Below are positions 197-64,000 of a stretch of DNA of 64,000 nt, piece after piece. The DNA comes from Fistulifera solaris (taxonomy: Eukaryota > Bacillariophyta > Bacillariophyceae > Naviculales > Stauroneidaceae): positions 62,001 through 126,000 of the forward strand of contig AP026140.1 in NCBI GenBank assembly GCA_030295235.1, written 5' to 3'. The notes below the pieces were generated by a model. That model made no database searches, was not told the origin of the DNA, and worked only from the letters and a program-made list of their open reading frames with translations. The position numbers and the translations under genes are program-made. How positions within the stretch are numbered: position 1 is the stretch's first letter; every line of letters begins with the position of its first letter.

Positions 197-1788
197 ATGA
201 AGTTTGGGCTTCTCTTTCTCGCACCCTTGTTGGTAACAGCGAATCAGTTCTTAGATGACCGTGGTAGAGCTCATGTGTTGCGGGATGAGCCTCGCGTCTT
301 TTGTTCGGCGACGACTGCCATTTCTTTGGTCCATCTAGGTAAAACTCGTTCTCTCTTTCCCTACTGCTCGTTGCCGTTTACTAAGCTAACCGCGTTGGTG
401 ATTATTTCGTAAACTACAGGGATGCCCACCGATTGGCTGGTGGCTACTTGGGGTTCACCTTTCAATCGCTTTTCCAATCTAGCCAAGGGCGAGAAATCTG
501 AGTACTTCACCATGGATATACAGCCCGACGATCTTGCAATCTTGCAGTCGAAACCTTCCGTCTCGAATCCAGATTGTCTGGACGGAACTCAGCCGGAGAA
601 TTTGTGTGATGAGATGGATGAAGCGAAGGTCAAAGCTCTTCAAGGAGTAACACTTATCATCGACGTTGTGGAAAACATTGGATCGGATCCCTTCCCTCTC
701 AACGCTTCTGTAGCATTGAATGTGCCCGTCGTAACCATCGATTCATCTTTTGATGGTGCTCTTAACTGTCTTCCGGATGCGGTGAACTACCTCGGTACCG
801 TTGACCAGAATTGTTACAAAAGATCCTACCTGGATGTCGTCAACCGTATTTATGATATGGCTGAATGGATGGGTATCGATACCCGTCACGATCGTGACTT
901 ACTTTGCAAAGCCACACAAAGATTTCAACAAGCAGCTAAACAGGCTCATGACAAAGGTATTCGGTTCTTGCTAGCTTCTATTCAGAATCAAGAATTTGAG
1001 GAAGGAAACATGCGCATGTATGTAACGAACCCTTGCATTTCAGTACAGCACGGACCATGGAAGAAATCGGTTTGCCCATCTTGTGGCCTGGTCTCTGCCA
1101 AGAAGAGATTTGCAAGTCGTTAGGAGAACTCCCTGCGGCGTATGAGCTTGTTCCGGCGAAGTTCTACTTCCCAGACTGCCCCGACGGTCAAATCGAAGCA
1201 AGCTGCGGCAAGAACACTTTGTATAAAGCGGACTTCTTGTTGCTAGAAGGATTCGGCTACCAGCAACTCGAAGACGACCCGGAAGCGTTCACGAATTTGT
1301 TTCCAGACCCAGCGCTTCTTGCCGGCCAATATATTGCCTTTCCTTTTGACGCGCATGTCTTCTCGCATCGCTCTCTTGCTGGCTGGTTGGAGGTTCTCAC
1401 CGAACGTATCCAGAAAGCCAAGCGTATTCACGAAGCCACTCCTTGTTCAGAAGCGCATGTAACCTCTCTACCACACCTCAACTACAAAGATGCGGAGCTT
1501 GGTGGTGGCGAGTACGCCTGCTGGAATCCTCAGTATCACAATTCTGAGTATGCCACTTGTCCTCCTGAAGAAGTAACCGAGGGTCTCTCGAATGGTGCAG
1601 TCGCGGGCGTGGCAGTTGGCGCCATTTTTGTTGGGGCCTTTCTCATGTTTGTTCTCATGAGATTCGTGTTGAATTATAGAACTGGCATCGACAAGAAGTT
1701 TCAAGAGGCTGAGGAAGAAGAAAAGGAGCTCGAGTCAAACACAAGCCAGGCGTCGCATGTGAATGATGCAGCTTGGAGGAGTGAATGA
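197..1788 (+). CDS. Periplasmic-binding-protein-like iron receptor (FBP1-like), type I membrane protein
   Basis: Exons 197-338 and 420-1788; the intron (GT 339, AG 419) joins in phase. The ATG at 197 begins a signal peptide (MKFGLLFLAPLLVTA). The ectodomain looks like a TroA-type two-lobed substrate-binding protein: an early lobe with a VATWG strand, a central VALNVPVVTID strand, a long helix around RDLLCKATQRF, and a second lobe with ARTMEEIGLPIL. A single membrane helix (GAVAGVAVGAIFVGAFLMF) near the C-terminus is followed by a short acidic/basic tail. In diatoms such TroA-like proteins (FBP1) bind ferric siderophores at the cell surface, and the nearby phytotransferrin supports an iron role. 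The frame changes at about 1030-1034 (one base apparently missing in CCCTT), with homologous sequence on both sides. About 503 residues. The fold assignment is moderate and the ligand is inferred. Confidence 0.6.
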
Positions 1789-1969
1789 GCAAGTGTTTGT
1801 CCGGAGTATTCTTTGTGTATTATTTGTTTTCTTTCGATGTCGTTCTAAGTAACTAAGCAATAACGTTTTCAAGATGTGATTTATTATTAGTTGATATTGT
1901 AGAATGTTGATTCCATGAACATAGTTATGATAGTGTGATTGTCAGTGCCGATGATTTGCAAAAATGCAC

Positions 1970-2449
1970 TTACAATCTCATTCCATCCGCCATAATAGAC
2001 GTCATATATTTAAAAACACGAGTCCAGTTTTCAGCATCTTCCGTTGTGAAGTCAGCTCCCATAATTGTTTCGACTGCGTAAATAGTAGCTCGACCCATCG
2101 AGGAAAGATCTTCCGGCTTGGCGCCGTAGGAAATGTGTCGCTGACCAAGATCCTTGAGAAAGTCCTCCAAGGAATCCAAATTCGGCCCAAGAAACTGAAC
2201 GACACAGTCCACCATATCCACAATCACAGGCGCATGAGTCTTGAATGATAAGTGTTCCTTGATATTTTCGACGCCTTCCATATCGAAGATCGCTGCGGCG
2301 CGAGGATTCAATTGAAAGAGTCGCTCAAAGATGAGTTCGCCTAATCGATCGACGTAGTCCTTATCTTTCAGCTTCACCTGGTCCCATGTACTCGATACAT
2401 TCATGGCGATGGTGTAGTCAATGCTTTCGATACGAGTAGCCGTTGTCAT
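1970..2449 (-). CDS. Single-domain globin
   Basis: 159 residues from the ATG at 2449. The protein reads as a three-over-three globin: an N-terminal A-helix region (STWDQVKLKDKDYVDRLGEL), FERLFQLNPRAAAIFD in the B/C region, SFKTHAPVIVDMVDCV as helix E with a candidate distal His, and LGQRHISYG with the proximal His at F8, followed by helices G and H (FTTEDAENWTRVFKYM). Length and spacing suit flavohaemoglobin-type or neuroglobin-like single-domain globins of algae. No reductase domain and no targeting peptide are visible, so it is probably cytosolic and may bind O2 or detoxify NO. It lies tail to tail with the iron receptor gene. The haem function is firm; the physiological role is not. Confidence 0.85.
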   Translation of the reverse strand: MTTATRIESIDYTIAMNVSSTWDQVKLKDKDYVDRLGELIFERLFQLNPRAAAIFDMEGVENIKEHLSFKTHAPVIVDMVDCVVQFLGPNLDSLEDFLKDLGQRHISYGAKPEDLSSMGRATIYAVETIMGADFTTEDAENWTRVFKYMTSIMADGMRL

Positions 2450-2665
2450 GGTGTCCTTAAATGTTGAACAAAGGGTTTGAAGGAGCTGAAAGAAAAAATA
2501 ATGAAAAGAAAGTGCGGCGTAGAGGTGCAAAGACCCTTTCGGCCCAAAAATTTGGCTGGCTGAGACCAAGATGCAAAATTGAATCTTGGATATTTCGGAA
2601 AAATTTACAGTTTTCTCTATAGTCTGGATTCTACGATACTGCCCCTCCACTATGTAAACGGACAT

Positions 2666-4234: not shown

Positions 4235-4485
4235 GGTAGCACAGTTGAATCGTCTTGGTAAAGCGGTAAAAGGTATAAATGAGTCGAAAGATATGATCGA
4301 ATGAATAATCGATGCGAAAATTTGGCGTGCCTTCGTGCATCGTTTTGAGCCTAAACAGGCCATAATAATAGCCTGGATCCAAACTTTCGCAAGATCAAAC
4401 TTCATAGTCTAGAATGCAATGTTGCAAGTCCGCCTCTCTACGAAGTGTTTTCGATAGAGTAGGCAAGGCTATTTCGAGACTTGAG

Positions 4486-4493
4486 ACACGTGT
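4486..4493. promoter_or_regulatory. ACACGTGT palindrome in the divergent promoter
   Basis: A perfect 8-bp E/G-box palindrome lies in the 501-bp space between the start codons of the Cys-rich gene (minus) and phytotransferrin (plus). It is one base from ACACGTGC, the element I recall as reported for iron-starvation genes of Phaeodactylum. Binding by a bHLH or bZIP factor is inference. Confidence 0.4.
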
Positions 4494-8767: not shown

Positions 8768-9842
8768 ATGCGATTTCTTTTTGTGACACTTCTCGCGTGG
8801 CTGTCATCGACCGCTGTGGCTTTTGTGCCGCCGACGCAACGCGTTCCGACGGCACTCGCTACCGCCATGACGCCCCTGTTTCCGACTCAAGCCTGGGAAG
8901 GAAAGGAGTTTCGTGTTACGGAGTTGCAAGACATGTTTGCGGAAGCTATGCAGAACTTTCAGAACCTCATGGAAAGTCACTCAACCAGCTCTTTCGATTT
9001 TGACACGGACATGAAAATTGCGGCTTCCGTGGCTACAACGGTTCGGGGCAACGGCGTCGTGAGCAACGAAGAAATGTACCGTTACATTCAACAAGGAATC
9101 GATCAACTAGTTACGACGCTTGCGCAAGTCTTGGCTCAGCTAGATGGATTCAGTATTGAGCAAAAGATTGCGGCGGCTTTAGCGACGGTCGTGATTTCTT
9201 ATCCTGTCAGCTATCAATACTATCAATATGAGTTGGCGGAAGAAGAACGACTGGCGGCAGAAAAGAAAAGCGAAACTAGCCGAAAAGAAGAAAGCAGAAG
9301 CCTTGAAGGCAAAAGCGGAGAAGGCTAAAGCTGCCAAAGGAAAAGAACCCAAGCAATCAGTTTCGAAAATAGCAAAAGACACGGATGTCGTGGCTGACGT
9401 CGCTGCAGAGAAGCGACCAGCCAAGGGTCCCAAGGGAGCCAGTAAAGAACAACTCACCATGAAAGACGAAGTGCTAGCGCCGGTTCAAGAGGTTGCCACG
9501 GCACAAGCAACCGAATCTTCTAGTCCTCCCCCTCTTCCTGTAACCTCTCTCGAACGTACTGTTACTGTGCAAGTGCCCGCATCACCGCGTGTAGTGGAAT
9601 CGACAATGCCCGTCATGGGAAAACAATCCGAAGACGGAGGAATGGATGCGTATGCGAGAGCTTATGCGGCCATGCTGTCTCAGGTACAGGCCGTTCAAGT
9701 GGCAGAACCGGCCCCAGCCTCTCCGCTTGCTCAACCTGTGGCAACATTTACCACTGACCCTCCTGCTGTAGAAACATCGACACCTGTTCGTTCCGGTGGT
9801 GGTACTGCTAGTTACTTGGAAACACTGTCACGTTCCGCATAA
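8768..9842 (+). CDS. Plastid-targeted protein with Lys/Ala-rich coiled-coil, function unknown
   Basis: A signal peptide (MRFLFVTLLAWLSSTAVA) is cut before F-V-P-P, the A-F motif that sends diatom proteins into the complex plastid, and a Thr-rich transit region follows. A helical domain (DMKIAASVATTVRGNGVVSN to FSIEQKIAAALATVV) leads into a charged helix and a long repetitive KAK/AEK coiled coil, then a Pro/Val-rich tail ending SYLETLSRSA. The frame shifts once at the A-run 9266-9269: removing one A continues EKKAKLAEKKKAEALKAK without a break, so 357 residues are expected. No family is recognised. The promoter carries CO2-response-type elements, so a role around the pyrenoid or carbon concentration can be proposed but not shown. 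Confidence 0.65.
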
Positions 9843-9984
9843 ATAAGATAAGAAAAGGAGAAGCTGTGCGAGCGATTATCCTTTGCTGTATAAAACTGAT
9901 TGAACTTTAGTACGTCACAACCTTATCTGGTATGCCTTCAGTTATTTTGTGATCACGCGTGATTTGTGACGATTTCCCTTTTTA

Positions 9985-10660
9985 AAAAGAATGTAGAAAG
10001 CTTTCGTCTGGAAACGGCGTTTTTCAACAAACATCGTTTCTGAGTAAATTCCAGAAAATCTGGAAAGCGCGATCTCCTCATACAGAAATTCTGTTTTGGT
10101 CCAGAAATTTGGACCATGTGTTTTTATCTCACAGAAATTATGTGAACCTCAATTACCATTGGACCTCGTTGTTATAGATCATACAGTGCTTCCCCGCTAT
10201 TTCCAGCAAATCTGGAAACGGCGTTTTTCTACGAACATCGTTCCTGGGTAAATTCCAGAATTTCTGGAGAGCGCGATCTCCTTATACAGAAATTCTGTTT
10301 TGGTCCAGAAATTTTGCACAAGGGACCAGGGACCAGGGACCAGGTGTTTTCATCTCACAGAAATTATGTGCACCTCAATTCGTTTATTTATTGCCTTGCC
10401 TCAATTACCATTGGACCTCGTTGTTCTAGATCATACAGTGCTTCCCCGCTATTTCCAGCAAATCTGGAAATGGCGTTTTTCAACAAACATCGTTTCTGAG
10501 TACATTCCAGAAAATCTGGAAAGCGCGATCTCCTCATACAGAATCCTGTATATGCCCAGAAATTTTGCACCAGGGACCAGGTGTTTTCATTCACAGAAAT
10601 GTATTTTCGTTTTTCGTTCGTTGAACTCTTTGGTCATCGCTGGAAACTTGGCTGAAATCT
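9985..10660. repeat. Imperfect tandem repeats rich in short palindromes
   Basis: Three diverged copies of a 200-250-bp unit begin with GGAAACGGCGTTTTTC-like sequence near 10008, 10212 and 10464. Each carries short palindromes such as TCCAGAAAATCTGGA, CAGAAATTCTG and CCAGAATTTCTGG. A GGGACCAG triplication sits at 10322-10343. Reading frames crossing it have no protein signature. It lies upstream of the first RING gene. Confidence 0.7.
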
Positions 10661-11930: not shown

Positions 11931-12544
11931 ATGGATGATGTTGCGACGTCTCGTCCCGGTAATTCTACCGACTCGACGACAACAAGCGACGACAGTGAAG
12001 CAGCTTTGTTCTTCTTTTTGGCTTGATCGTGATATGGACGTTTATCATTGTTTTGTCCTTTTGCGCTGCCCGTTGCGGCTATCTGCAGTCATCCCAGGAA
12101 AGTGAACAGAACTGTCAGGCAATCGACGATCAGATTATTACCAAGCGAGCCGTCTCATTCGCGTTCACTTCCGAAGATGTGGAGGCAGGATGTGAAGCCA
12201 TCAAAGATACCCCAGAATGTACAATTTGCTTAAATTCATTTGAGGAACATGATATTGTCAGCTGGTCACAGAATCAAGCCTGTCGACACGTCTTTCATCA
12301 TACTTGCATAATACCGTGGTTGGCGAAAGATCCGCAATGCCCTTGTTGTCGTCAACCTTTCTTGGGCAATTCGTCGAATCGAGCCGCTACGACATTTTTC
12401 TCAGTTCATATGGGATTGGTTGATACTTGTAAGGCCACACCAGAGCAGAAAGATGCCTATCAAAAGCTTCTCGAATCGAGTGAGCTAATACGATGCAAGT
12501 CTAACACTCGACTGGGTAAGTTCGCCGAGAAGAATGGAGAGTGA
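11931..12544 (+). CDS. RING-H2 finger membrane protein, tandem paralogue, putative E3 ubiquitin ligase
   Basis: The ATG at 11931 opens a Ser/Thr-rich N-terminus (MDDVATSRPGNSTDSTTTSD) whose frame closes inside the membrane helix. One extra T in the T-run 12015-12019 restores FFFGLIVIWTFIIVLSFCAA and the rest of the gene, giving about 204 residues. The RING-H2 is complete: C-T-I-C, C-R-H-V-F-H-H-T-C, C-P-C-C, with PWL before the last pair. The DQIITKRAVS linker matches ENRLITKRAMS of the upstream gene, which supports tandem duplication. Without the corrected indel only the part from about 12000 would be read. Confidence 0.7.
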
Positions 12545-15993: not shown

Positions 15994-17277
15994 ATGACAG
16001 AAGCGAAAGACTACGAGACGGAGCTCTCACCTTTGTTGCAACGTCGACAGTCACACACTTCGCTCAATGAAGAGTCACTCGCGAGCAACACAGAGACAAC
16101 AATCAATTTAATTAAAACTTGTATGGGTACAGGATGTCTCGCATTACCATTCGCGTGTCAACAAGGTGGTATTGTACTTTTTATCATCGGGTTATTTGCA
16201 GTGGGAGCTTGGAATGTTTATTCCGTCCACCGTTTAGTGCAATGTTTATCCTGTTTTCCCAAATCAAGACAGTTATCGGATGCTACAAGCAGTACTACCC
16301 GTATCAACTCCGCACAGGAACCCCAAATACCACCAGAAGGTATCGCTGTCATGAGTCAAGTGACTTGGATCGCATTCGGGCCGCTGGGAGTACAAGTACT
16401 CGATGGAATCATGATGGTATTGTTCTTTGGAGTGATTACGGCTTATTATTGTGCCGTTCTAACGTTTCTAGGCGATACACCGTTGTCGTTGGGAAGAATA
16501 TTTGATAGTGGATTGACATGCATCATTCTCACCGTTCTATCGCTAGTGCCGCATGTTGGTGCATTGAAATATGCCAGTGCGTTAGGAATGATCGTACTCT
16601 CCCCTGACCTTTGGTGTCATTTTCGTTTACGGATATTCCGGAAACAACAAGGAGGGTGCGACGTTGAATATGTGGCCTTCTTCCATCGATGGGCTGAGTC
16701 AATGGTTCGGTGTGATTGTCTTTGGATTTGGAATTGTTCCCATGACGTACAATTACCGATCCTCGATGCAAAGGCCAGAAGATATCGTGAAAGTTACATT
16801 GCATGCCATGTTTGGGACAGCTTGCTCGTATACTATCATCGGATGGGGTTTGTATGCACTGTTTCCTTCTTTACAAGGTGATGTGCTCAGTGAATTACCC
16901 CGACACGGAGTCTTTCCCATTGCCACTCGTTTAGCCATGGTCACAGTGGTCTTGATGACGGCACCCTTTTGATTGTACCATGTGCGGAGTTATTGGAAGG
17001 CAAATGGCAGCATGCGGGGCGATTATTCACTCGATTAACAATCTGCGGCGTTTCGTGTACACTGGCGATCCTCTTTCCGCATTTCGTTCAGGCTTTATCA
17101 CTTGTAGGGTCAACGTGCGTCGCTGCCGTTAGCTTTTGCGTGCCTGCGTTACTCCACTGGAAATTAGTAAGGGGACAATCGGAACAGGAGTATAAGCGTC
17201 TAGCCAAGGTTGATTTGTTCATGTTTATCCTGGGAATCGTTTTGACGGCCATCAGCACCTACGTTCTGCTTTCGTGA
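15994..17277 (+). CDS. Amino-acid transporter (AAAP/SLC38-like)
   Basis: About 427 residues, with 10-11 membrane helices. The start is typical of the family: an acidic, di-leucine-bearing N-tail (ELSPLLQRRQSH), then TINLIKTCMGTGCLALPFAC, the first helix with the unwound G-x-G that coordinates the amino group and Na+. Later landmarks are FGVIFVYGYSG, VIVFGFGIVPMTYNYRSSM and the last helices up to ISTYVLLS. It moves neutral amino acids by Na+ or H+ coupling across the plasma or vacuolar membrane. Two one-base breaks divide it into three frames: an extra C in 16601-16604 and a missing T in 16967-16970. Correcting both gives a full-length family member, so decay is unlikely. Confidence 0.75.
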
Positions 17278-20968: not shown

Positions 20969-21044
20969 GATTGCCTAATTTAATTCAATGCATAAAATGC
21001 TAATCCATTATGGTACTTGTATATGTTCGAATGTTTTTCGTCTT

Positions 21045-26489: not shown

Positions 26490-29190
26490 TTAAAGTACTA
26501 CAAACTGACTGCACACAATTCCACGGACTCTGTAGAAATCCTCGCAAAGTGGACCCTCCACGTGCAACTTTCCACTTTGTTGCTCTTTTCTTACCAAAAT
26601 GCCACCATTCACCACTAGCTGTGAATGTCCCTTCATTGTCTTGTAGTCCGCTTTCATCCCTTGAGCAATCAGTTCAGCCCTCAGATCCGTCAACAGAATT
26701 TCACCTTCACTAAGATACAACGAGGGACTGTCATCGGAGATTTGATCGACGCGTGGTGCCAGCACGAAACTGCCATCAAGCGCAACTTTCTGTCCAGTGG
26801 CCGCCAACTTTAGCTTGCTTACAGTACATGAACCTAATTTCGTTTCTTTGAATTCGACCGGTCCTGGTGGTTCCTCGCAAACTTCCCTTTCTTCTGGTAG
26901 CAAATAAGGTGTATCTACTAATCGGACCGCATATGCTGCGTGGCCCACGTGAACTTCTGTGGTTTCACCATCGCTCGGTGTTTCTACATTTGTGTCGCCT
27001 GAGGCAAAGTCATCGTCGCTTCCGCTAGAAGCGAAACTTCGTCCACTAAATACCCAGGTATTTCTTGGGTCGTTGCCGGACCTCCCAAAACGATGACTTG
27101 ACGTGGCTGGAGCGCTCGAACTGACTGCCTTGCCGCTTGTGCATCGACTCTCCCTTCCAAAGGTACGAACGACACTTCGGCTAGAACCTCAATTTTCCGA
27201 GAAACCGCGGTTACTTTCGTCGGTGCACGACCGTTACGACCACGAATAATTCCACTTCCTTCTGAGAGGTCTGCTGCTTCTAGTGCCTGTTCGTCCACAT
27301 CGTCCGCGCCATCATTATCTTCTTCTTCGGATACTTTTGCGGAGCTGCGTTTACTCTCGACACCGTAGCCGAAGCCTCTTCGAGCTACATCATCTCCAAT
27401 TCGACCACTGCTACCAGCGAATTTCAAAGGGTCAACGCCGGCGACGATATCGATAAAGCGTTCAGGCTGTACTGCGATTCCGTAATCGTCTTCAATTATT
27501 TCTCCCGAACGACCAATCGACTCACCAATTCCATACTTTGGTACGGAATCAGGTTGTCCGATACCAGCAACATCTTCCTGCAGGTCGAAGGTAACTGTGG
27601 AAAAGAAGGCTATCAGAAAATGACAAACATGCAAAAATGATATACGTGAGCAAATGGACTTACGATGCAAAGGCTTTGAGAATTTCAAAAAGAGAGTGGA
27701 ATCAAAGCGGCTTTTTCTTCTTCGGCCTTGAAGCTGTCGAAACATTTGAAACGGCTTTGACTTCTGGTTCGTCATCTCCAAGTCGCAATTGTCCTTTCGC
27801 CAGCTCCACTTCGCGTAACATGGCTCGCTTCTCCTCCTCCTTTTGTGCCATAATGCGAGCCTGCTCTTCACTTTCGAGAAAGCGCTTCAATTCTTCTCCC
27901 GTAAGCGGAGAACGCTGGGGAACACGTACATCTACCTTAATGGAATCGTCCATTTCTCGACCTTCTCGTTTGGCTTGCGTCCACGCGCTCATTAACTGAC
28001 CTGCCGCAGTCCAAGGCGAAGTTCTTTCTCCATCGTCCTCTTCGATAGGCATGCTACTTGTTGTGGAAGTCAACTCTTTTTGGTGTCGCAGATAGCACTG
28101 CGATGAATCCGTAAAGATGACAGCATTGTCTGGATTATCTGCCCATAGCAAGAAGACATCTCGCGAAGGTCCATGATCCAGTGTCAGACCAGATGCCACA
28201 ACACAAGTTGGGTTATTGTTTCTCTCCATAAAGCTCTGTAACTGCGCCGCTGATGTAAAGAAGTGCACTGCATTCAATCGAAGCGGATGACTTTGCTGTG
28301 TATCAAAGGCATGTCCCTGCCGATCGGACATCCATTCGAGTTGACAACGAGCGAATTCGGCCGTGTTCGGTACGAGAGGTCCCAACCACACAAGATTGTA
28401 TGTCTCACCCAAACGTTGCTTTTCCCAATGCTGCTGCAATATCAGTATGAGTTCAATGACACGACCCGAAGCATCCGCAGGCAACAAAACATTTCCGTCG
28501 CGTCGTAGCACCGCCAAAACTGATTCCACGAGTTCTCGTTCGGCTTGACTGGCCATCAGCGACGGCAACAAGGGCCTCCTTCCTTTGGTCAATAGATGAC
28601 ACTGCCGAAACGCAATACCACCAGGACGAGTAATCAAAGCATCTGGTTTTGATTGTTTCAATAGAGTAGACGAATCCAAATGCAGTTCCCTGGCCATATT
28701 GTAAGTAGCTGTAAAGAGCACGACCGTCTCATCAATCACACGCTGAAATGTGTAGAAAGCTCCTCCAACAACATGTCCCGCTCGTTGTGCCGTAATCGAT
28801 AAGTTCCCAATATGAATACTTTGCGAATATTTGATGCAAATAACAGCCGAAATAGCGGCATCGAGCTCTTCGAGCGTAAATGGCGGGCGAACTCCGTCCA
28901 TACTGAGTGCGGCGTGATGATCGTATAGCGTCATTTGACCCATTTTGACGGTAGGAAATGTCGCATAAATCGGAGCTGTACCTCGATACATCGGTAAGGC
29001 TCCCAGAGATTGCAGCGTGCTGTCGGTAATTAAGACACAGTCATGAGGGAGGGAGTTCTTCTTTCGGGGGAAGCGCACCCAGATTGCACAAAATGCGGCA
29101 ATCGGAAAACTCAATCAAAGTGCAATCCGGTTCTAACGCTTGGCCCTCTTCCGACCATCGGCTCCCTGAAAGAGGCGTTACTCGTAGCAT
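26490..29190 (-). CDS. CPSF2: Cleavage and polyadenylation specificity factor subunit 2 (CPSF100)
   Basis: Exons 29190-27664 and 27594-26490; about 876 residues. A metallo-beta-lactamase/beta-CASP protein lacking the zinc-binding set of CPSF73, as CPSF100 does. Landmarks: LGALPMYRGTAPIYATFPTV and KMGQMTLYDHH, GNLSITAQRAGHVVGG, RRDGNVLLPADASGRVIELI, QLEWMSDRQGH, VVASGLTLDHGPSRDVFLLW, then GEIIEDDYGIAVQPERF and RQVIVLGGPATTQE, with a C-terminal domain after VHVGHAAYAVRL. It acts in the nuclear pre-mRNA 3' processing complex. Three apparent indels: extra G in 29066-29070, extra T in 27712-27716 and one missing base somewhere in 26995-27040. An alternative explanation for the last is an 83-bp intron from GT in GGA-G|GTCCGG to the AG before GCGACAC, but that would remove conserved sequence. 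Confidence 0.85.
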
Positions 29191-30376: not shown

Positions 30377-33300
30377 TCAACTGCTTTGGAACTTGATGAA
30401 ATAGGATGCCAAGTACGTCGGAAGATACTCGCACGGAAAGCTGGACCAGTAGCCTACTATTGCGGGGTCGCAGTCGTTGCTGTTGTGCACGTGTGGAAGG
30501 TCGAACGACAAGAAATAATCCGCGGCGTATTGGAACAATGGCATGAAAGCAAAGAGACAAACAATTGCAAGGAGCCAATTGAAAAACAAGAACTCCATGT
30601 CATCGATTGAAGCAGGTGTATCGTCCCACAGTTCAGCACACCAGTAGACAAACGCGTGCTTGCCAGATGACAAGGGCGTCATGACAACGCTTGATAACTC
30701 TTCAGGGGATACTTCAATGTAATGCAGCTCGTCGTGAACCCCAAAAAAGACGTCATGGCAGCAAGTTTGGAATAGTATCCAGCCATGGGTATAAAAAATT
30801 CTCCTCCGTCCATCGTTCCGAGTTGCGCATCGTCGTCGTCTGGAAAAGAAAAGCACCTAGCCGAAGAAGCCAACCGTCGAGTGTGGAGTGCGGAGGGTTT
30901 GGGGGTTCATATGTCGAAAGCACATCAGCAGTGGCTTCAACATGATCATCTTCATCGTGCACTCCGTAAAATACATCGTGGAGCGAGGGTAGATAAGCTT
31001 TCCAGGTCGACGGAAAAACAAGGTCCTCCGTTTTTGTGGACTGGAACTCAGGTTCACCAGTGTCAGTATCATGATAAACAACATCCACGGCATTATTGCC
31101 TGGCAAGAGAGGATGGCTCTTCGATGAGAAGAAGGAATATTCAGTGTAATAATCCAACTTTGTGGGCTTGAATACTGAATGTAAGCCACCATCGGTTGGG
31201 GATAGCTTTCGTCCTACCTGATTCTCATTGTGCAGTGAACAGTCCGACTTAGGTGCCAATGGGTTCAATTTCGGTGCGTTGATGGAAGGAGTTATCAGTC
31301 GAAATGCGTTGCCCTTCTGCGATGTAATAAAAGCGTTTCGACTACGCGCGTTCTTTTCTTTCTCGGCTGAGCTGTTTGGAAGGAGACCAGTGCTGAAATT
31401 GTTAGGCAATGGCTCTAGGGAAACGCGATTGGGCTTCGATTTTTGCTTACCTCCGTATGACAGTTTTGCTTTTGCATCCCTAGTAGGTGATACATTTTCC
31501 TGATCCTCTGTTTGACCTTGAACATCCGAGTCGTTCTCTCGCTCTCCAACGAAGGGCCGTTCGGGTGGCGGACTTAAATCCAAGAAGTTGTTGTCGCAGC
31601 AATCTTGATGGCTCAAGCACTCTGTCCCGGTGTCATTGCGTTTGAGAGATTGAGTAGTTGACCCGTCATGGATCGACATGTCACGTGCCGCCTTAATCGA
31701 TTGATTTATCGGACTCGATGAGGGACGTTGTTCTAGACCATCTAGCGATGCTGGATTAGAATTCGTATTTAGTGGGCAACGATCGCCGTCATTTTGGCCG
31801 CTTGCGTTTTCCGATTCGGGGCGGATCTTGTCGCCATTTTCAATGAAAGTGTCGCTCTGTTGCGTAATGGGCTCTGACGATGATTCCGCACTTCTCTGTT
31901 GAAGAGACTTCAAATGACATTCGAGATTTACTGAAGTCAGGGCAGCATGCCGTGGGCGCTTCGTAGCACTACCCAACGACGTCGAGGCCGACGCGATTGG
32001 ATTCACCGTTCGAGCGTTTCGGAAAGTGACTAGATATTCGAACGTGAGTGAGGCACTTGTGATGGCAAACAACACACTTCTACGCAGAAATGATACTTAC
32101 CATCCAATCCCACAACCTGGTTTGAAGCGTCGTGACAGAATACGTCGATGCGGTAGTCGGTCGAAGCATTTGCAATGTCGTCCACAAAGCAGCCCAGTAA
32201 ACCAATGCCTCCAGCAATACCTAATTTGTACGCCTGCGATGCGAATGTGCCTTCAATTTCTGTTTCCAGCTGAGGGATGGAAATCACCTTTGGCGGCAAA
32301 CCATTTTTCCAGTTAAGACTTTCCAATGTCTTACAGGCGACAGGCAGAGCCGACAAGCGACATTCATGAGCCGACGAGAACCCGTCAAAAGCAATCAACG
32401 ATAGCGTGAATACCATGGAAACCGAATCGTCGTCCAAGAAGACACCTTGGGACATTAAACTGGTGAAACGATGATGAGATGGATTTACCGTGGCTTTTGA
32501 ATATCCGCTCGACGAAGCAGACGATATATTCTGCACATCCTGATGACTTGAATGGCGAACAACCAAGCGTTTGTTCGACCAGTCCTCGCGTAGTAAATCG
32601 TAATCATCGTCGAGCCGACAGTTGTTGATATTCGACTGCATGTCCAGAGTCCATTTTCCGGGCATGGCTTCGAGGGGCATGAGCTCCAGCACGCGACCTT
32701 CTTTCGGCAAATTTTCGGTCCGACCTTCCACTATGGTTTGCTCGAGAAATGCAGTGCGATCTGCTGCATCGGGAACTGTATTGACTCCCTCGACAATGGC
32801 CCAATACTGTGACGGCGGAATCGTCAGCTCCACCGACAATCGCTCCAACATATCCCGTTTTCGACGACGCTGACCGGCAAAGGTGACTGCTTTACCTTCC
32901 GTCTTATCCACAACGCAGAGAGACTTTACGTTATCGACGTAGTCCGTGTCATTTGTATCGACCGGCATTTCGTTCGCTGTCGACGGCGTTCCCGGCGGGA
33001 CTGTCGGTGCCGCCTCGCCGCTGTTGCGTATCGTTTCCAAAGGCTCGTGATAGCTTTTCTGTGATTCTTTCTTTGTCGCTTTTCCTTTCGGAGCGTGTAC
33101 ATGCTGTTTCGCTCCTTTGACAGCATTGCTTTTCGAACGTTTCGCGGTACTGGAAGAACCGGCCGTTTTCGGCGCTTTCGCTCGCGATTGCTGCGCCGTG
33201 GGACGATTTTGAGTCATTTTATGCTTTTCTTTCCATTTTGCGTAAGCATTTTTGTATTGCACGGTGCTCTGGCGATTCCATTGCTCATAATACGTCAAAC

Positions 33301-33739: not shown

Positions 33740-34596
33740 ATGAAGAATGACAAGATGTTACGACGAATCAACTTTGCTTGGGTAATACTCTTCGGCTTGT
33801 TTTCATGTTCAAGATCAGCTATGGTTATCACCTTAGGTGACTCGTATGCGGCTGGAACAGGTGCGCAGGCATTGCGGAAGGAGTACGATGATACAACTTG
33901 CTACGTCGAAGATGACACAAGTCCTGGAGGAAAATATGCTTCCGCACGTGGTTTGAAGCACATTGTGGCAGCTTGTAGTGGTGACCTCGTCATTGATACT
34001 GTGGCGCAATGGGATGATTTGCAGCTACGTTATTCCAATGAAGCTACGGATCTTTGGGAAGGATCGGTTATTCTTGTGACTACCGGCGGAAATTCGCTCG
34101 AGTCGATTCGTGGTGACGACTTTGTAGAAGGTCTGATTCGCTGTTTGACTGTTCCGCGTTGTTACGAACCCCCAGAAAATCAGGTTGCGAACTATGATGC
34201 AGTGCAAGCCGAACTAGAGCAATTTTACTCTCAGTTAGCGGTACAAGCATATCGAGCGACAGTCCGAGTTATCGGATATCCGAAAGTATTCAATTCTAAC
34301 CGGCTTCGATGCTCGATTCCTGGGATAACAGTTCGGGAAGCCGACTTTTTGACAATATCGTAATTGGAATGAATGATCGGATTGTGACGGCCATCGACGC
34401 AGTAAAGTCAAGTTTTCCTGACTTCGACATACGGTTTGTCGATGTCACAAACTATTATACGAACGGTGCATGCTCGCCCTTCAAATCTCGCCAAGTACGA
34501 AATCTAAATGCGCGCTTTCCCCGTTCCAGTTTTCATCCCACACAAAATGGATACGATAAATCATATGGGGCTCTGCTAGATACAATGAATGGCTGA
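33740..34596 (+). CDS. Secreted SGNH/GDSL-type hydrolase, tandem copy 1
   Basis: About 285 residues. Signal peptide LRRINFAWVILFGLFSCSRS; the ATG at 33755 is an alternative start. Block I is VITLGDSYAAGTG with the nucleophile Ser in GDSY; a GGNS block carries the oxyanion Gly and Asn; the last block is SFHPTQNGY, with the catalytic His but Ser in place of the usual Asp. Conserved Cys residues (TTCYVED, AACSGD, GACSPF) suggest disulphides. Members cleave ester bonds of lipids or acetylated glycans; the substrate is unknown. One T seems missing in 34346-34350 between READ and FDNIVIGMNDRIV. The second copy has the same break at the same codon. Confidence 0.7.
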
Positions 34597-35062
34597 TTGC
34601 GGTAATTTGAGAAAGAGAGGTGGATTAGTAAGTCGAAAGCCAAAAAAAACACCACCGGTTCACCGTAAAGGGTTTCTTCATTTATGAGATATGTCACTTC
34701 ATTGACCGCCCAATTGAGCAGTTTTCCGGTGAAGAAAAGGCAAGTTTGTCGGTTGGTTTACAAATCTTCTGCGAGATCTTTCACGCTTTCAAGTCGCTCA
34801 TAGCAAAACGAGGGGCCGAACACTTTCCCGAGACTGACTTCTGTTTTCAGTCACGATTGCCGAAAGAAGCGAGGACTTACTTAATACTGTGAGCCACAAA
34901 GTACTAAGTGCCTGACCTAACGGCCATAACCCATAACATAACGGCCCTCTTCGATCGTCGTCATCGCGTAGAACGCACAATAATTTCGTCCTCTTTCTTT
35001 CATCGGAAACAAACAACAACACTTCTCTACCGAATATCGATTATTTCTGTCAGACGAAGCCG

Positions 35063-35909
35063 ATGTTATTCGCAGTACGGTCGCTTCTTGTTGCATTGTT
35101 GTGCTATGCCGCCGTTCCGCTAACGCAAGCAGCCTTAGTTGTGACGATCGGAGATTCGTATGCGGCTGGAACAGGCATTCATGCTTTGCGGAAGGAATAT
35201 GATGATACGTATTGTTACGTTGAGGTAGACACCATTCCTGGAGGAAAATACGCTTCCACGAGAGGACTGGAGCATGTTGTAACGGCGTGCGCGGGTGATA
35301 CGATTGATGCAACTGTAGCACAATGGAACGATTTGCAACTTCGCTACCCAGACGAAGTTGCCGATCTATGGGAAGGATCGGTGATTATTATTTCCACAGG
35401 AGGGAACTCCGCGCTCACGAGACGAGGCGAGAATTTCGAAGAAAGTTTAGCTAGAGTGTTAAGGACTCGACGATTTCACGAGGATGAATTGAACCAAGTA
35501 GGAAATTTAGGTGACGTGCAAACAGAGCTGGAAACATTTTATTCTCAACTGGCGGTCGAAGCGGCAGAAGCGACCGTTCGGGTGATGGGTTACCCTTTAT
35601 TTTCAATTCTAATCCACTGAAATGTTTCATCCCTGGAATCCGTGTCGCAGAAGCCAACTTTTTGACGAAACAGTGGTCGAATTGAATGAAGTCATTGTTG
35701 CGGCTATCGAAACAGTTAAGACCGCATTTCCTAGCTTTGACATCCGCTACGTCGATGTTGCTCCTTCTTACGGCAGCGGCGCTTGCTCTCCTTTCAAATT
35801 CCGCCATATAAGAGACATCAATGTTCGGGCTCCGGTTACCAGCTTCCATCCAACGCAAGGCGGATATGATAGAGCTTACGGGGCTTTTCTGCGGACGATG
35901 TTAATCTAA
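35063..35909 (+). CDS. Secreted SGNH/GDSL-type hydrolase, tandem copy 2
   Basis: About 282 residues, signal peptide SLLVALLCYAAVPLTQA. Same blocks as copy 1: VVTIGDSYAAGTGIHALRKE, STGGNSA, SFHPTQGGYDRAYGAF, and matching Cys positions. Two one-base losses, in C-run 35593-35595 (GYP-FIFNSN) and T-run 35659-35663 (EAN-FFDETVV), split the frame; both flanks align with copy 1. About 470 bp separate the two genes. Divergence between them is spread along the length, so the duplication is not very recent. Confidence 0.7.
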
Positions 35910-36646: not shown

Positions 36647-37994
36647 TCACCGAATCGCTTTCATCTGATCTTGATCATTTAGCAACTGGACAAGCTGTAG
36701 TAAAAGCAGCGAGATCATCGGTTTCGCCAAACGCATCCAATACTGTGGACCTTCTCCTTTCGCTTTGCTTTCCATGGTGTACCAGCAACCTCCACCAAAC
36801 ACCAGTGTCAATCCCACCATAGTCCCTCGCGTAACTGTCTCCCGAAACCACACAATCGCCATGACAATGGCGAACACGCGTTACCAGCATTGAGTAGAGA
36901 ATGTGTCAATGCCGAACAGTAGCCAAGAGTGATCATGGAAAGTGAATTGTACATTGGATGCCACGTCAAAATACCCCAATGGATGCCGTGGATTGTCGCA
37001 TCAAAAACATCCAAAGCGACGGGGAGTGATTGATGCAGGCCCAACAAGAGAAAGAGCATCATGGAAAACGCTACCATGAACCACGCCGATTGCCAAGAGA
37101 GTTTTGTGAATTGCATCAACGAAGTCTCGAGAACACCGGTTGACGGTGGACTGCTACTCGACGGTTGAGCCGAATTATTGCTGTGTTGTTGGCGTTGCAA
37201 CACATTCCGCGTCGAAAGGGTAAAACCGCTGAGCAGTGCAAAGGTTACGGCATGGACGTGTGGCTGGCTACTTTTGGATTGAATGAGCGAAATGGCCGCC
37301 CCGACCGTCAGGATCATGCTACTCGCGACTCCCATGGTAAGTAATTTGCGTTCGTCGGGCAAGAAAAGACGAGTCAATAAGAGAATTTCGAACGGTTCCA
37401 ACAATTTAATGATTTGTACCTGCGGGAAAGAACTTTGTGAGCGAGTTGGAAGATGTGAAGTCAACACTCTGAAACTTCGAAAAAGACTTACAAGAGAAGC
37501 AGAGCCGTACATATAACCCAGATTTGTACAGATGCTTCCGATTCCGTGCAACGCAGACGAAATGCTTTCGCGGAACTGAAATATAGTAAACACGGAACGG
37601 TCGGGGCTACGGAATGACCTCTGCGTTGAAATAATAGAGAGAAGAGCATGAAGCAGCAGAAGGACATAACCGACAAGTGCTCCGAGAAACAGTTGAAGCG
37701 TAGTGACAACCGAAGTGATTGCGGTGATGGTGAACAGTGAGTTCGTCATGAGATTTTCTTCTTTTGTACAAGGTCTTTTATGAAACCAGAAAAGCTTTGC
37801 ATGGAAATGCCATTCATTCCGTTCGTAGTATACCAAGCGGCGACCATAAGAAAGAAAGATGCATAATAGCGGATTTGAACAAGTCCTATTAGCCATATTG
37901 ACTGCACTTGCTCACTGTTGTGAACCAGCGGCAACGTTTCCTGTAATTTAATTCTACTTTGCGCACCCTCTCTCGGCGCTGTCAACGACGACAT
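36647..37994 (-). CDS. Nucleotide-sugar / triose-phosphate transporter (TPT/NST, DMT superfamily)
   Basis: Exons 37994-37492 and 37419-36647; about 425 residues, ten predicted helices. Family marks: the first helix ASFFLMVAAWYTTNGMNGIS, the LLEPFEILLLTRLFL helix with the L-E-P that matches A-L-E-P of TPTs, and the signature near the end HSLLNAGKRVFAIVMAIVWF (N-x-x-K-R) followed by a helix with GLTLVFGGGCWYT. It exchanges nucleotide sugars for NMP, or phosphorylated C3-C6 compounds for phosphate, in Golgi or plastid membranes. No plastid presequence is visible. Indels: one base missing in the T-run 37762-37765 and one in TT 36881-36882 (both plus-strand positions). Substrate not deducible. Confidence 0.75.
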
Positions 37995-40556: not shown

Positions 40557-42141
40557 TTACTCCTTTTTCATGTAATTACGAATGATGGATTGTTTGACGT
40601 AGATGACGTGTTGGCCTTTCCAAACCTAAATGTATCACAAAAATTGCAGGAGTTAAATTGAAAATGTCGACAAACCATGCACCGAGAAACCAAATTTTTG
40701 TCCTTACCTTTATCATATCGAGGTATTGTAACGTGGAAATGATATCTTCAGATCGAATTCCGGTTTCCGCGGATATCTGAGTGATATTCGTATCCACTGT
40801 CACGTCGTGATTGGCAAAGTAAAGCATCAGGACGTGTGTCCAGTAACTACGATAAGACAGTTTTCCCAGATCCGACAAAGGCTTTTCGGGAGAACCTGTC
40901 TTGTTTTCCAGCTTGGTCAATTCATAAGAAAGACTAATGATGAATTTTCCAAAACCGCACTTTTGATACTGTGGAAACGTCAAAATGCAAGCTAAATTGT
41001 ATCCCTCCGAGGAATTCTAGAGTTGATCAAAGAGGTACAGCGTTTCATTGTGAGCATGGGCGTGATTCAATAAAACATAGTTCTTTGGTGCCACCTTGAC
41101 CTACTTTTTTCTTTCGAGAAATATCCCACAATGTGTGCTCCTTCCGCATCCACTTTGGTGACGATGTAAAAGAGAAATGGTGTCGTTTCAAAGTACAACG
41201 TTTTGTGATCCAGAAACAATTTGGCCAAAAGGCACAGCTTTTGACAATACACCCGATGTTCCTTTCCATCAATTTCGTATACGGACACATCCTCGTGACG
41301 GTATATTTCTTTTCCGGGAGGATGACGATGCGCACAAACGTGATGTTTGTAGGTTTTGAAATTTTTCATATACGAGAGACAATATTCACAAACGTACAAG
41401 GTTTCCAAATCACAATACGCCGCGGGGAATGGACTGTAATACCATGTTTCGACTTGCCATTTCCCAATTACAATGGTTTCAATGTTTTTGACCTTGGTGG
41501 CCTCTTCGTGTTCACGTTCGAGTGTCGGATCTTCCCCATGCCAGTTGCCACCCGAAAGTAAATCTTTAGGTTCGGTTGTAGCGTCCGCCTCGTCATTTTC
41601 TCCATAAGATTGTTGATTGGCAGGGTGATAATTCGACATACTACTCCGACGACGAGACGGCCGACCGACAGCGCCAGTCGTAGAAGAAGACGTAGGATCG
41701 TTTTCGTCGGCCGCGTCCTCGGCGTGTCGTTGCAACGTATTCAGTTGAAATTTGTCTAGTGTAACCCATTCATCGAGACGTCTGTGATAGAAGAAAGAGT
41801 AGACAGGAAAATGTCCCGAACGCAAAGACACAGATAAGTAAAGAGCTAGCACACGAATCAAGAGCACAGAGCAACCACACGTACCGATCATGATTCATAT
41901 AATGAACGTAATACTCTACTTCATCGGCGGGGAGTGAATCTACATTAACGTCAGCTTCATTCTTTTTGTTAGCAGCCTTGCGCTTCCGATGATGAAGAGG
42001 TCTGCGATGAATGACTATTGCATCTAAATATTCTCCCTCCTCTTCACGCCATTGTACTTGACATCGGTCGTGAACTTGTAAAGGCGCCGTTAGAGTCGTT
42101 TCCGTCGTTTCTGTCACTGCTTCTGCTGCTGTATCGATCAT
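40557..42141 (-). CDS. MYST-family histone acetyltransferase (ESA1/TIP60-like)
   Basis: Exons 42141-41885, 41781-41105, 41016-40708 and 40625-40557; 436 residues. N-terminal chromo-barrel ([16 protein letters not shown]), Ser/Asp-rich linker, then the C2HC zinc finger ([19 protein letters not shown]) and the HAT core: [20 protein letters not shown] (family K-autoacetylation region), [20 protein letters not shown] (catalytic Glu vicinity), then [17 protein letters not shown] (acetyl-CoA loop Q-x-x-G-x-G) and SYWTHVLM. It acetylates histone H4/H2A in NuA4-type complexes. At the exon 2 end the A-run (plus T-run 41105-41110) is one base too long for phase; one fewer gives SKEK|NSSE, as in relatives. 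Confidence 0.9.
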
Positions 42142-45518: not shown

Positions 45519-45539
45519 TCACGTCAAAAATGCGAGGAA

Positions 45540-46265: not shown

Positions 46266-47446
46266 ATGGTTCTACCGCTTCCATTGCTCGCCGTCGTCGG
46301 TGTCGCCGCATTGGCGATTGGCCTCGGAATTCTTCAAAGACAACAACAACAACCACCACTACGCATGGAACCAGGCGTTACGTATGTCATTGGAGATTTA
46401 CACGGTGATGCGGATTGTGGAAAATACTGGGTCGATCGATTGGGATTGATTGAAGATGATGTGTGGATGCAACCGAATGCGTCCTTGGTGTTTTTGGGCG
46501 ATTATGTCGATAAAGGACCCTTTTCTTTGCAAACGATTGAATTTGTCAAAAGCTTAACGGATCGATTTCCCGACAAAGTTACCGCATTGTTAGGAAATCA
46601 CGAATTGGAATTGTTACGCGATCGCAATGATGAGACCGTTGTCAAATATGTACACTTGGCGTATTCCGCGGTTCATCCGGAAGATTTTTGAACTACATTC
46701 ACGAACCCACCGAAGAAGATCGACAAATTATTGATGTCATTATCAATGCGAGTATCGAAATTTACTCACATCGCATGCAGCAACAAATGCTGGCGACTCC
46801 TGTAGCGCATGCGCATGCATACAATCGCAACAGTCTCTTTGAATTGTTTGCCGAAGAAGACCGGCCATATTTGCAACAAAAAATGGCTTCGTATCAACAA
46901 GCTTATTTGCAAACGTTTGCTTCCAACACGACACTCGGAAAATGGTTGGAGACAAGAAAGATTATTCACGTGGAGAATGGCGTAGTCTTTTGTCACGGAG
47001 GTTTGAGTGAAGGGATCGTGGATCAAATCCATCAAGTAGGAGGTGTCGAGGCATTCAATGAACTATTTCAACAAAATGCGGACGATCAAACAATTCACAA
47101 ATTCTTGCAAACACCCAAAGGAAAGGCCGTGTACAATATGTTAGTCTACCGAGGCAATCACCAACCCGAGGCGTGTCCGTCGTTGCAGCGCATCTTGGAA
47201 CAACTGAATGTCACCAAGCTGGCCGTGGGACACACACCGGGACAGAATGTTCGAACGCTGTGCGAAGAACAGTTCTGGGCCTTGGATTCATTGTTGGGTC
47301 GCTGGATTCGAACGTCCGGAAATCAATATTGTCCTGTAGAAGGTCGATCCTCACAAAATGGTCGATTTGTTTGTCCTCCTCTCACAAACTCTTGCATGGG
47401 ACAAGTGACACGATTTGCCAATGGAAAAGTCGACATTTTAACGTAA
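46266..47446 (+). CDS. Bacterial-like PPP-family phosphatase (Shelphs type), membrane-anchored
   Basis: About 393 residues. N-terminal hydrophobic anchor or signal (LPLLAVVGVAALAIGLGIL), then the metallophosphatase signature: GDLHGDAD (G-D-x-H-G), LGDYVDKGPFS (G-D-x-V-D-[KR]-G) and LLGNHELELLRD (G-N-H-E). The second half has VVFCHGGLS and LAVGHTPGQN, both metal-ligand His blocks. The GDYVDKGP form and the extended helical insert fit Shewanella-like phosphatases found in plants, algae and apicomplexans. The T-run 46685-46689 is one short: EDF closes by TGA whereas EDFLNYIHEPTEED continues with one more T. Substrate unknown. Confidence 0.8.
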
Positions 47447-48252: not shown

Positions 48253-50196
48253 ATGTCATCACAACGTCGTCGTGACCGCAATTCACCTCGTAACACGGAT
48301 AATATGGTGTTTGAACCCTTCGATCCTTACGCCGCACCCATGACCATTTCCGTCGTGAACGATCCCCTCGAAGATGACGCCGCCGTAGCTCGTGCTTTAC
48401 AAGCGGAATACGAAGCCGAATACCGACGCAGTCAAAGTGCGTTGCGCAGTGATCACAGCGTTCCTTTGGGTCTCATTGTTTCGACAGCTCCGTACGAACC
48501 ATCAAGAGGATCACAACGTTCGAGCAGTCGTCCATCGGCTCGCGATACAGCCTTTCGGGGCGAAAGCGTACGAAGAGCCAATGAACTTAGCTCGGGACGC
48601 GCCGCCGAACGAAAGCAACAGGAACGAAGTCAGTCGAAAAGCCGTCGCTCGTCACAGGAACTGTCGGATGCGGAATACGCGCGGAAATTAGAACGAGAAA
48701 TGAGTCAAGCCAAAAAGAATCTCATTCGTCAAAACATGCCCAACGTCATTCCAGCAAAAGTCGTTCCTCACTACAAGACAAATCCGATGAAGAGTATGCT
48801 CGAAGATTAGCACGGGAACTAAATAAGCCACATGTGCTGGCGCCCGCGGCCGCGGCAGAAACGTTGAAACGATCTCAAACGCCGGCGACATCTCGTTCGA
48901 ATAGCGAAGATGACATTGCCATAGTGGAGGTGGCGATTATGACCGCCGATGATGAAGCGTATGCTCGTCGGGTCGAACAGGAACTTGCCGACGAACGTTT
49001 AGCCGAAACGATCCGCAGGCAAGAGCAACAGCGCATTGATCGGCAGCGTGCGAATACGTTACAACAGCGACAACAGCAACCCACATCTCGCAAATGTTGG
49101 TTTACACTCTTTCCAATATTGTTGATTATCGGAGCTGTTGGGGGTATCTTGTACTTTTTCTTATTCGGGGATGATGGATTACCGAACTGGATGCCGTGAG
49201 TTGTTTTATGATTGGATTGTCTATCCTGTGTTTGTTTATGTCATGGTCTTACCTATTTTTATCTCTGCCTCTTCAGATCACCAGAGGAGTTTGCGGAGGA
49301 AGATCCATTTGCCCAGAAAGGTCCTGATGAAGTCAATAAGTGGAGAACTTCTGACACTGGTCTTGAGCTGGAGGTTATGAATGCTTTGGACGATCTTTGG
49401 TTCCCTTACTTTTACTCTGCCGTTTCAGAGTGGGACGAAGGAAGTCCCGATGCCGTGACGCTCCGAACCACCCGAGTCGATGCGGACCCTGAATGCCGAA
49501 CCGTTCCGGGGGTGCTCAAAGTTTGCAACGGCAATTACGGCGAAACATCATGGCGAGGAATCAACAAACTTTTGCTGGAAAATGATGACATTTATGCCAG
49601 CGCGGCACGTATGAATGAATTCTACTTCCGTGGGGAGGATTCCGATCAGCGTCAGTACACCATGTGTCACGAGATTGGACACGGTCTGGGGTTACCGTAA
49701 GTGCGAGCGAGGCTTCCCGTGCTAAGATTTATGTTTTCCTGGTGCTAACGCTGCCTTGTCAATTTTTCTTTGCAGACACACGGATGAAAGCTTTGTCAAC
49801 AGAGACCTCGGCAACTGCATGGACTATACCAACCGTCCCGATGTCAATAAGCAACCTGATCGGAGCAACTATGTCTTTTTAGCGGAATTGTACGGTACAG
49901 TACCAGGCAGCCCACCTTATACCCCCGATGTTGACACCGACGGAACAGTCGAAGCCGAAGCACAAGTCAACAATGATTCTGAATCAGATCACAACAGCGA
50001 TGATCGTAGATTGCGTGGTAGTTCACATCGTATTTTGCGTTTCATCGAGCAAGTCGATGAAGAGATTGAACGCGGTCTTTCAGCCATACGATCACACAAT
50101 GATTGGACGCTGTTGCACAGCTCTGCATACGGAGAAGCTCACGAAAAGATACTGGACGATCAATTTAAAGTCCAAGTACACTTTCTTCTCCCTTGA
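48253..50196 (+). CDS. Single-pass membrane zinc metalloprotease (HExxHxxGxxH)
   Basis: Exons 48253-49195, 49277-49696 and 49776-50196; 594 residues after one correction. The cytosolic N-half is disordered with three copies of an EYARKL-type element (DAEYARKLERE, DEEYARRLARE, EAYARRVEQEL). A membrane helix (FTLFPILLIIGAVGGILYFF) precedes the luminal or extracellular protease: VLKVCNGNYGETSWRG, CHEIGHGLGLP|HTDE with all three zinc His, and the Met-turn-like CMDYTNRPDVN after it, then YVFLAELYG. This arrangement is metzincin-like. One base is missing near 48770-48775. The second intron cuts between the second and third zinc ligands. The physiological target is unknown. Confidence 0.75.
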
Positions 50197-61975: not shown

Positions 61976-62034
61976 GGTTTTCGTTGGTGCTACATAGCGT
62001 CTCGGACAAGTGGCCAACGAAGCTTTCTTTATGG

Positions 62035-64000
62035 TTAAGAAGTAATTTCTAGTTCCTTCTCAGAAAGACGATCGAATGTCATTACCATTTCACAATGATC
62101 GGTGAGGGGAAACATATCAACTGGCGATGCCGAGGTAATGCGAAAAGCATTACCTGGGTACTTTTGGATGCTGGCTGACAAAGCAAAGTCGCGTCTTGCA
62201 CCAATGACCCGGTCGGGTTGCAGCTAACGTAAACAATCCTTTTGATTCTTCGGTTGGCCCTCAGTGTACGAAGTACCTCGTTGTGAAGACCCTCCCGCGC
62301 TGGATCGACAACAGCCACAAACTGCAAATTTTCCTCTTTCGCTTTGCCTATTTCCTTGCTAAGCACCTGCTCTGCTCGAGCGGCAACAAAAGCGACATCC
62401 CAGATCTTTGACGTATTGTCGCCTTCATTGTTCTCGTCGGTTCGCACTGTAAATCCATTTGCAACTGCGTTCATTTTTGCATCCTCAATTGCTAAAACAA
62501 CATACATGGATCAAGCGAATAAGAGGTTGTTGGGGAAAACTAAGCGTACATAACGTCACCGACGTACCTGGTTCACTGATATCGACGCCAACCACCTTTC
62601 CGACTGCACCTTCTTTCAGACAAGTAAGTCCGATGGTCCCTGTTCCGCAACATACGTCGAAAAGAAGCATATCTTTCGCCGACGGGGTCACTGCTTTTAC
62701 TCGATCCACTACCATTTGGTATAGTATTTCTGCCCCTTCTGTATTGACCTGGAAGAATGCACCGGGTGATATTTGGAAGTGGCATTGACCAAGTCGTTCT
62801 GTAAGAGTCTTCTTGCCAAAGACGTGCTAACGAATAAATGAAGACGCGATAAGTTAGATTGAACTCGAATAATTAATCATAAAATATCATCATCATTCAC
62901 TTACCTGTACAGGATGTTCGGGTGGAGGATTCGAGATTCCTCCAAATTCCTGAAAGAAAACGCTAGTGACTTTGATGGGTTCGTCATTGGGCAATTGAAG
63001 TTCAGCAGCGGTCAGTACGGATACTAACCGTGCCCGTTCGGCTTCGAAATGTTCCACGTAAGCGGATTCATCGCCCACTCCCCCCGATGGAGGAGTATGT
63101 TGGATGATGACCATACATTCACGCGTTCGCCGGGATGTCCGCAAAGTCATCACCCGCCAAAAACCAACATGATCTTTCACGTCATACGGCGGCAACGGAC
63201 TCGTCGCCAGAAACGCATCTACTAGATCTACTAACTGACACACTTCCGTGGGTATATTCTGACAAACGTGTGGGCGCGAAACCCCACCCGCCCAGCCAGT
63301 CACCATAAATCCGACGGCTGGAATTTTGGTCGGTTCTGTATCCTCTTTGTTCTCGTCGTCAAACTGGTATCGATACCCAAAGTTAAACTCGCATTTGTTT
63401 CTCAATGGAGTCGGTGCACTAACAATGTCCTCCACGAAAACGCTGCGATCTCCTTTGAGCCAGGAGTACAATTGTACCGTTTGTCGCTTCTTGTCTCGAT
63501 CCAGCTCTCTGTGTTGGCGTCAATCAGGACCATTATGAGCAATACTCGACCAAAATAAATAAATGAATTGCATGCTACGTACCGGAATCGCTTTTTAACG
63601 TTCGCGACAATTTTCATAGCACATCCCTTGATCATGTTCGTCATTTTCTTACTTTTCTGCTCGTCCGCTGACAACTGCCAGAGAGGGGTCACTTTGTTTT
63701 GAATCTCTTCTTCCGTGACAGGACGTCGGGCTGCTGTAGTACTTTCTTCAATGATCCGTTGTCGCTTGGAAGTCGGGGCCGAAGTGGGATCCGTATCTTC
63801 CGCAGCACCTCGTTTCTTCTTGTCGTCACTTTCTTCCGTTCCGGGCTTCGCTACCAGTTCAAATCCACGCTTGTTTTTCAACTTATTTTCATTAATGTAC
63901 TGAATCAATAACGGACACATTGATTCTTCTTTCATTGTTATGACAACAAAACTATCTTGTGGAGGTTTTCGGAACTTTTCAAAGTCGATCGCTTTGTCAG
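62035..64000 (-). CDS. tRNA (uracil-5-)-methyltransferase TRMT2A-like, 5' end outside the window
   Basis: Exons 64000(open)-63583, 63508-62905, 62826-62568 and 62491-62035; about 578 codons visible. The first exon remains open at the edge. A charged Lys/Asp/Ser linker precedes the catalytic part: NKCEFNFGYRYQ, VGFWRVMTLRTSRRTRECMV, FQISPGAFFQVNTEGAEILY, DVCCGTGTIGLTCLKEGA (SAM motif I), VVDPAREGLHNEVL and IVYVSCNPTGSLVQD with the catalytic Cys in S-C-N-P. The enzyme makes m5U54 in the T-loop of cytosolic tRNA (TrmA/Trm2 family). One T is missing in 62162-62165; the true end is YPGNAFRITSASPVDMFPLT through a stop at 62035. Confidence 0.85.

Follow-up and report, generated by a model that had tools for sequence, protein, structure and literature searches.

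The window analysed here is a stretch of 64,000 nucleotides of the diatom Fistulifera solaris (G000:C19:62001-126000), taken from an assembly of 61 contigs and 51.7 Mb. It carries, among others, genes for an Aa_trans transporter, a RING-finger protein, a polysaccharide pyruvyl transferase, a MYST acetyltransferase and a calcineurin-like phosphoesterase, as well as CPSF2-like and TRMT2A-like genes. DNA searches with three pieces of the window returned contig C19 itself and one further collinear copy, on contig C20, at 86-93% identity. Over 53,580 aligned bases the window and C20 are 86.7% identical, i.e. the two homoeologs differ by 13% of bases, a pattern that fits the allodiploid state described for F. 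solaris (PMC13276009). In a survey of diatom assemblies this species is entered with 62 sequences and 52 Mb, and the record cited there is 'Fsolaris_ONT_v03' (PMC12159174); judging by name and size, the assembly analysed here is apparently this nanopore assembly.

Several other features of the window were observed. Two related genes lie in opposite orientation at 18287-19175 and 21988-22907, as seen from inverted matches to their C20 counterparts, and one fragment of this pair matches Galactosyl_T. Two tandem genes with a weak GDSL-lipase match occupy 33761-34593 and 34937-35906; one and the same T-run break is common to this pair and to its two counterparts on C20. By eye, the intergenic region 9980-10620 contains repeats with several copies of short palindromic elements such as CCAGAAATTTGG.

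Reading frames were followed with a hidden Markov model (HMM) that combines codon usage with the substitution pattern between the C19 and C20 homoeologs (synonymous change), run blind to the sites listed by the first-pass annotation. It produced 21 same-strand transitions in the window, 17 of which fell close to listed sites (14 within 25 bases, those for 30757 and 62162 at 30 bases and that for 48770 at 65 bases). Three sites (12984, 37762 and 41105) were missed by the HMM and were confirmed by reading frames against C20; a break was thus found near all 20 of the listed sites (Table 1), bearing out the claim of about twenty one-base frame breaks. Three of the positions given for them were off by 19-58 bases, namely 29066 (corrected to 29047, GGG versus GG), 30757 (about 30793-30799) and 48770 (48712). 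The A6 run at 30757 itself does not differ between the window and C20, where it is in frame. The list is incomplete, with 63452 and 23916 as further, weaker candidates. Set against the 39,847 HMM-coding bases of the window, the 20 sites amount to about one break in every 2 kb of coding sequence.

Table 1. Frame breaks in the window, with the state of the homoeologous copy (C20) or paralog.
Position	Strand	Sequence and gene	Comparison
1028..1040	+	One base short; gene without Pfam match	HMM; tandem paralog L032 open, one base more
9260..9270	+	A run, one base extra; neither side matches Pfam	C20 intact
12010..12024	+	T5, RING-finger gene	Break common to C20
12984..12990	-	A6, one base extra	C20 has A5, open
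16594..16606	+	C4, Aa_trans transporter, one base extra	C20 intact
16963..16972	+	T4, same Aa_trans transporter as break 16601	Break common to C20
19754..19762	-	A7, polysaccharide pyruvyl transferase, one base extra	PS_pyruv_trans in both pieces; C20 intact
26987..27030	-	CPSF2-like gene, no run of at least 4	Break common to C20; unexplained
27710..27717	-	T5, CPSF2-like gene, one base extra	C20 has T4, open
29045..29076	-	GGG at 29047, CPSF2-like gene, one base extra	C20 intact
30787..30800	-	A6 (listed as 30757), one base short	C20 single open frame (by eye)
34342..34352	+	T5, GDSL-lipase-like gene (weak match)	Break common to C20
35585..35597	+	CCC, tandem GDSL-like gene, one base short	Window f1 to f0, C20 f2 to f2
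35655..35670	+	T5, tandem GDSL-like gene	Break common to C20
36878..36884	-	TT (C20: TTT)	C20 intact
37759..37768	-	T4, one base short	C20 intact
41103..41110	-	One base extra, MYST acetyltransferase exon end beside intron	C20 exon end in phase (by eye)
46683..46690	+	T5, calcineurin-like phosphoesterase, one base short	Metallophos on one side; C20 intact
48705..48718	+	A5 (listed as 48770), one base short	C20 intact
62160..62168	-	T4, TRMT2A-like gene	C20 has T5, open

As the first-pass annotation had stated, the breaks lie mostly in homopolymers: 18 of the 20 are in runs of at least three identical bases (coding background 16.0%), 15 in runs of at least four (5.0%) and 11 in runs of at least five (1.2%), with binomial tails of 6e-13, 4e-16 and 8e-17, respectively, which are optimistic since placement by hand can favour runs. 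When no break was placed by hand, a run of at least five was found within 12 nt of 9 of 17 HMM breaks, versus 6.5% of coding bases. No run of 10 or more occurs in 134 kb, which would fit under-counting but is not used as evidence here.

A local frame test on either side of the break was applied at all 20 sites (at 1030 in the window only); together with reading of the frames, it separated 15 private breaks from five shared with C20. Fourteen of the 20 sites are open in C20 and one (1030) is open in a paralog; 12 of the private calls come from the numeric test and three (1030, 30799 and 41105) from reading the frames. At eleven sites (9266, 12984, 16601, 19754, 27712, 29047, 36881, 37762, 46685, 48712 and 62162) the test directly gave a broken frame for the window and an open one for C20. 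The presence of 35659 in its flank makes site 35593 come out as shared, whereas a shorter flank shows it to be private. Site 30799 tests as shared with an intron border in its flank and is private by reading, the shorter numeric test not deciding the matter. At 41105 the numeric test gave an open window and a broken C20, with the stops on the intron side, and the extra base was called by reading. The counterpart of 1030 is missing from the C20 alignment, which lacks window 800-1106; the comparison there is with the tandem paralog of the gene, at C19:60269-61027 just outside the window. Relative to the intact copy, seven of the 15 private breaks (9266, 12984, 16601, 19754, 27712, 29047 and 41105) have an extra base and eight lack one.

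Short or unrecognised introns would also account for changes of frame, and the HMM did report frame changes at 32099, 38982 and 49690 which resemble ordinary introns, with donor-like GTAAGT or GTGCGT by eye, and which are common to C20 (the transition at 49205, which corresponds to no listed site, is a same-frame gap). Moreover, GTATGT and TTTCAG lie within 26 bases at site 1030, and site 41105 adjoins a real intron. However, 15 sites are colinear with the homoeolog or paralog save for a one-base difference, which an intron cannot produce; an intron would show as a whole GT..AG stretch lacking from the homologous copy. The 26-base candidate intron at 1030 was rejected, as the paralog shows one missing base instead. 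We consider the probability that introns explain the breaks to be practically negligible, although a small one might be conceivable at 27010.

For the reverse comparison, coding gaps of a length other than a multiple of three were considered; there are 51 of these, and 13 were tested. In seven of the 13 it is C20 that is broken and the window that is open (3943, 8878, 12364, 24789, 28881, 1138 and 1344), with the reservation that 1138 and 1344 lie in the divergent first gene and that 12364 and 24789 have one flank without an excess of synonymous change. At four gaps (46259, 47390, 63452 and 23916) it is the window that is broken and C20 that is open, each with one flank that is not clearly coding; 40258 is broken in both copies and 37426 is open in both. 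An uncorrected or incompletely corrected long-read assembly agrees with these results, given that the homoeolog or a paralog lacks 15 of the 20 breaks and that C20 has breaks of its own. The breaks are not a local matter. Five other homoeologous pairs, on other contigs (L001/L002, L003/L004, L005/L006, L022/L023 and L028/L029) were tested with a filter that removed gaps of a multiple of three and flanks that did not look coding. Ten of 140 gaps were kept, eight with one copy broken and two with both, and each pair has at least one break in one copy only; a few of these may be false, as two gaps passed on both strands. One of the two gaps broken in both copies has the T run of the dde gene in its flank.

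That most breaks are confined to one homoeolog, in an allodiploid species (PMC13276009), is also what would be expected of pseudogenes, i.e. of copies decaying since hybridisation, one homoeolog at a time. Against this, non-synonymous changes make up 0.415 of the codon differences in the segments with breaks versus 0.382 in the others, with an off-frame control of 0.868; by this measure, which covers codon differences alone, there is no relaxed purifying selection in the broken genes. In addition, the transporter, the pyruvyl transferase and the MYST gene still give good Pfam matches in the pieces flanking their breaks, and the chance that gene decay lies behind the breaks appears vanishingly small.

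The two parts of each broken gene had been said to match the same family, and this is so for three genes. In the transporter, positions 4-157, 171-289 and 324-409 of the Aa_trans model are matched in successive frames, divided by the breaks at 16601 and 16967; the pyruvyl transferase matches PS_pyruv_trans 1-168 and 243-277 in two pieces; and the MYST gene matches MOZ_SAS 1-75 and 74-178 in two exons with an intron between them. Pfam does not bear the claim out for the CPSF2-like gene, where one piece matches Lactamase_B_6 and Beta-Casp, another matches CPSF100_C and the middle piece matches nothing, or for the remaining broken genes, which have a Pfam match on at most one side, some below the Pfam cut-off. 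Such weak or single-side matches are to GDSL, tRNA_U5-meth_tr, EamA and Tetraspanin, that of the TRMT2A-like gene to tRNA_U5-meth_tr being weak, on one side only and below the cut-off. For genes matched on at most one side, it is the homoeolog or paralog that provides the evidence of a break.

The five shared breaks (12015, 16967, 27010, 34346 and 35659) all appear one base short, or two too long, from their frames. Four of them lie at T4-T5 runs whose position agrees between the homoeologs, and two of these T-run breaks recur in two tandem paralogs. This is what programmed or transcriptional slippage would predict, in which the breaks are real and a T run lets the ribosome or the RNA polymerase move back by one base. 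However, 15 of the 20 breaks are not conserved, and extra as well as missing bases occur. The fifth shared break, at 27010 in the CPSF2-like gene, has no run of at least four bases; a short inverted repeat found there (CGCTTC, five bases, GAAGCG) may or may not be relevant to it.

A comparison with independent sequence bears directly on the shared breaks. Of 25 guide and primer sequences published for F. solaris (PMC13276009), checked against apt and dde in this assembly, 24 match exactly, the copy-specific oligos each occurring in a single homoeolog and being mutually consistent. The mismatching oligo is the dde guide, printed with T6 for both homoeologs from the earlier assembly GCA_002217885.1, where this assembly has T5 on both contigs concerned, C7 and C8. 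In the C7 copy, VDE 2-124 is matched up to the run in one frame and VDE 129-226 after it in another; one added base would join the two, and the piece continued without a shift has no VDE match. Absence of a break from independent F. solaris sequence was thus found at dde on C7 and C8 only. The same homopolymer error in both homoeologs explains the shared class of breaks, and the dde run also argues against slippage, as T5 here is T6 in the independent assembly and the VDE frames need one more base. The miscount is not universal: the published G6 and A5 match the assembly exactly, and the idea that every T6 collapses to T5 was discarded because near 30757 neither copy has lost a base from its T6, which C20 reads in frame.

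The plastid contigs provided a second control. On contig C60, psaA and psaB are open, with 750 and 777 amino acids and no stops, while on contig C61 the psaA/psaB family is found in 11 pieces, eight with internal stops. An alignment of 5,034 columns shows 19 deletions, five insertions and a single substitution in C61 relative to C60. Among single bases 2 of 2,415 are affected, among runs of two 4 of 800, among runs of three none of 217 and among runs of four 2 of 60; the share then rises to 9 of 19 for runs of five and to all of the longer ones, three runs of six and one of seven. Three of the insertions adjoin no equal base, and four of the 24 events are crowded into 53 bases. Indels with hardly any substitution, at a rate that increases with run length, are what nanopore error produces, and a plastid loss on C61 with an intact copy beside it is a further point against slippage, which we regard as extremely unlikely. 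An old nuclear copy of plastid DNA should have more than one substitution. The psaA/psaB block also occurs twice on C60, inverted and nearly identical (113629-118049, plus strand; 190129-194549, minus strand), the indel-rich block on C61 being the third, which is probably a plastid misassembly and an uncorrected leftover contig.

The earlier attribution to long-read assembly error is strengthened by the dde run that is wrong against the published sequence, by the indel spectrum of C61 and by the ONT name of the record cited in the survey. With high confidence we therefore regard the breaks in this allodiploid species as consensus errors of one base each, made in its nanopore assembly, and we infer that each of the 20 sites in the window is such an error. 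The base caller and the consensus would miscount bases, chiefly in homopolymers, so that a base is dropped or added; where the true run is equal in both homoeologs, the same miscount would arise in both and yield a shared break. The genes would be intact in the organism itself. Because five breaks occur in both homoeologs, part of the error looks systematic and not random; the incomplete correction of the assembly apparently left errors of both kinds. The frame breaks are almost certainly an artefact of assembly, neither a real feature nor a new form of gene decoding.

Besides the runs kept at full length near 30757 and in the published oligos, two findings count against consensus error. One is the existence of the shared breaks, with 27010 outside homopolymers; we consider it very unlikely that these five, and above all 27010, are real, whether through a conserved frameshift or through an unrecognised small intron. 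The other is that the private nuclear breaks are balanced between extra and missing bases, whereas deletions predominate in the plastid contig, a difference which could be due to different polishing of the contigs. A literature search on Fistulifera solaris and homopolymer found no report of such errors in print. False truncations are to be expected in gene models, counts of gene loss and homoeolog comparisons based on this assembly, and where errors are shared, agreement of both homoeologs does not prove a break to be real.

The breaks resemble the systematic errors described for nanopore sequencing, for the most part indels in homopolymers with a resulting change of reading frame (PMC8011154), in that indels occur with few substitutions, increase with run length and frameshift many genes; they differ from that description in that some are present in both homoeologs and in that extra and missing bases are balanced in the nuclear window. 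Kastor (PMC12007338) addresses long-read errors that fragment genes, with frame shifts resembling pseudogenes as here, but is described as made for small genomes, and the present case is a nuclear contig of a diatom. With programmed -1 frameshifting, as generally known, the breaks have in common a T run at some sites; they differ from it in lacking, at all but the five shared sites, conservation between homologous genes.
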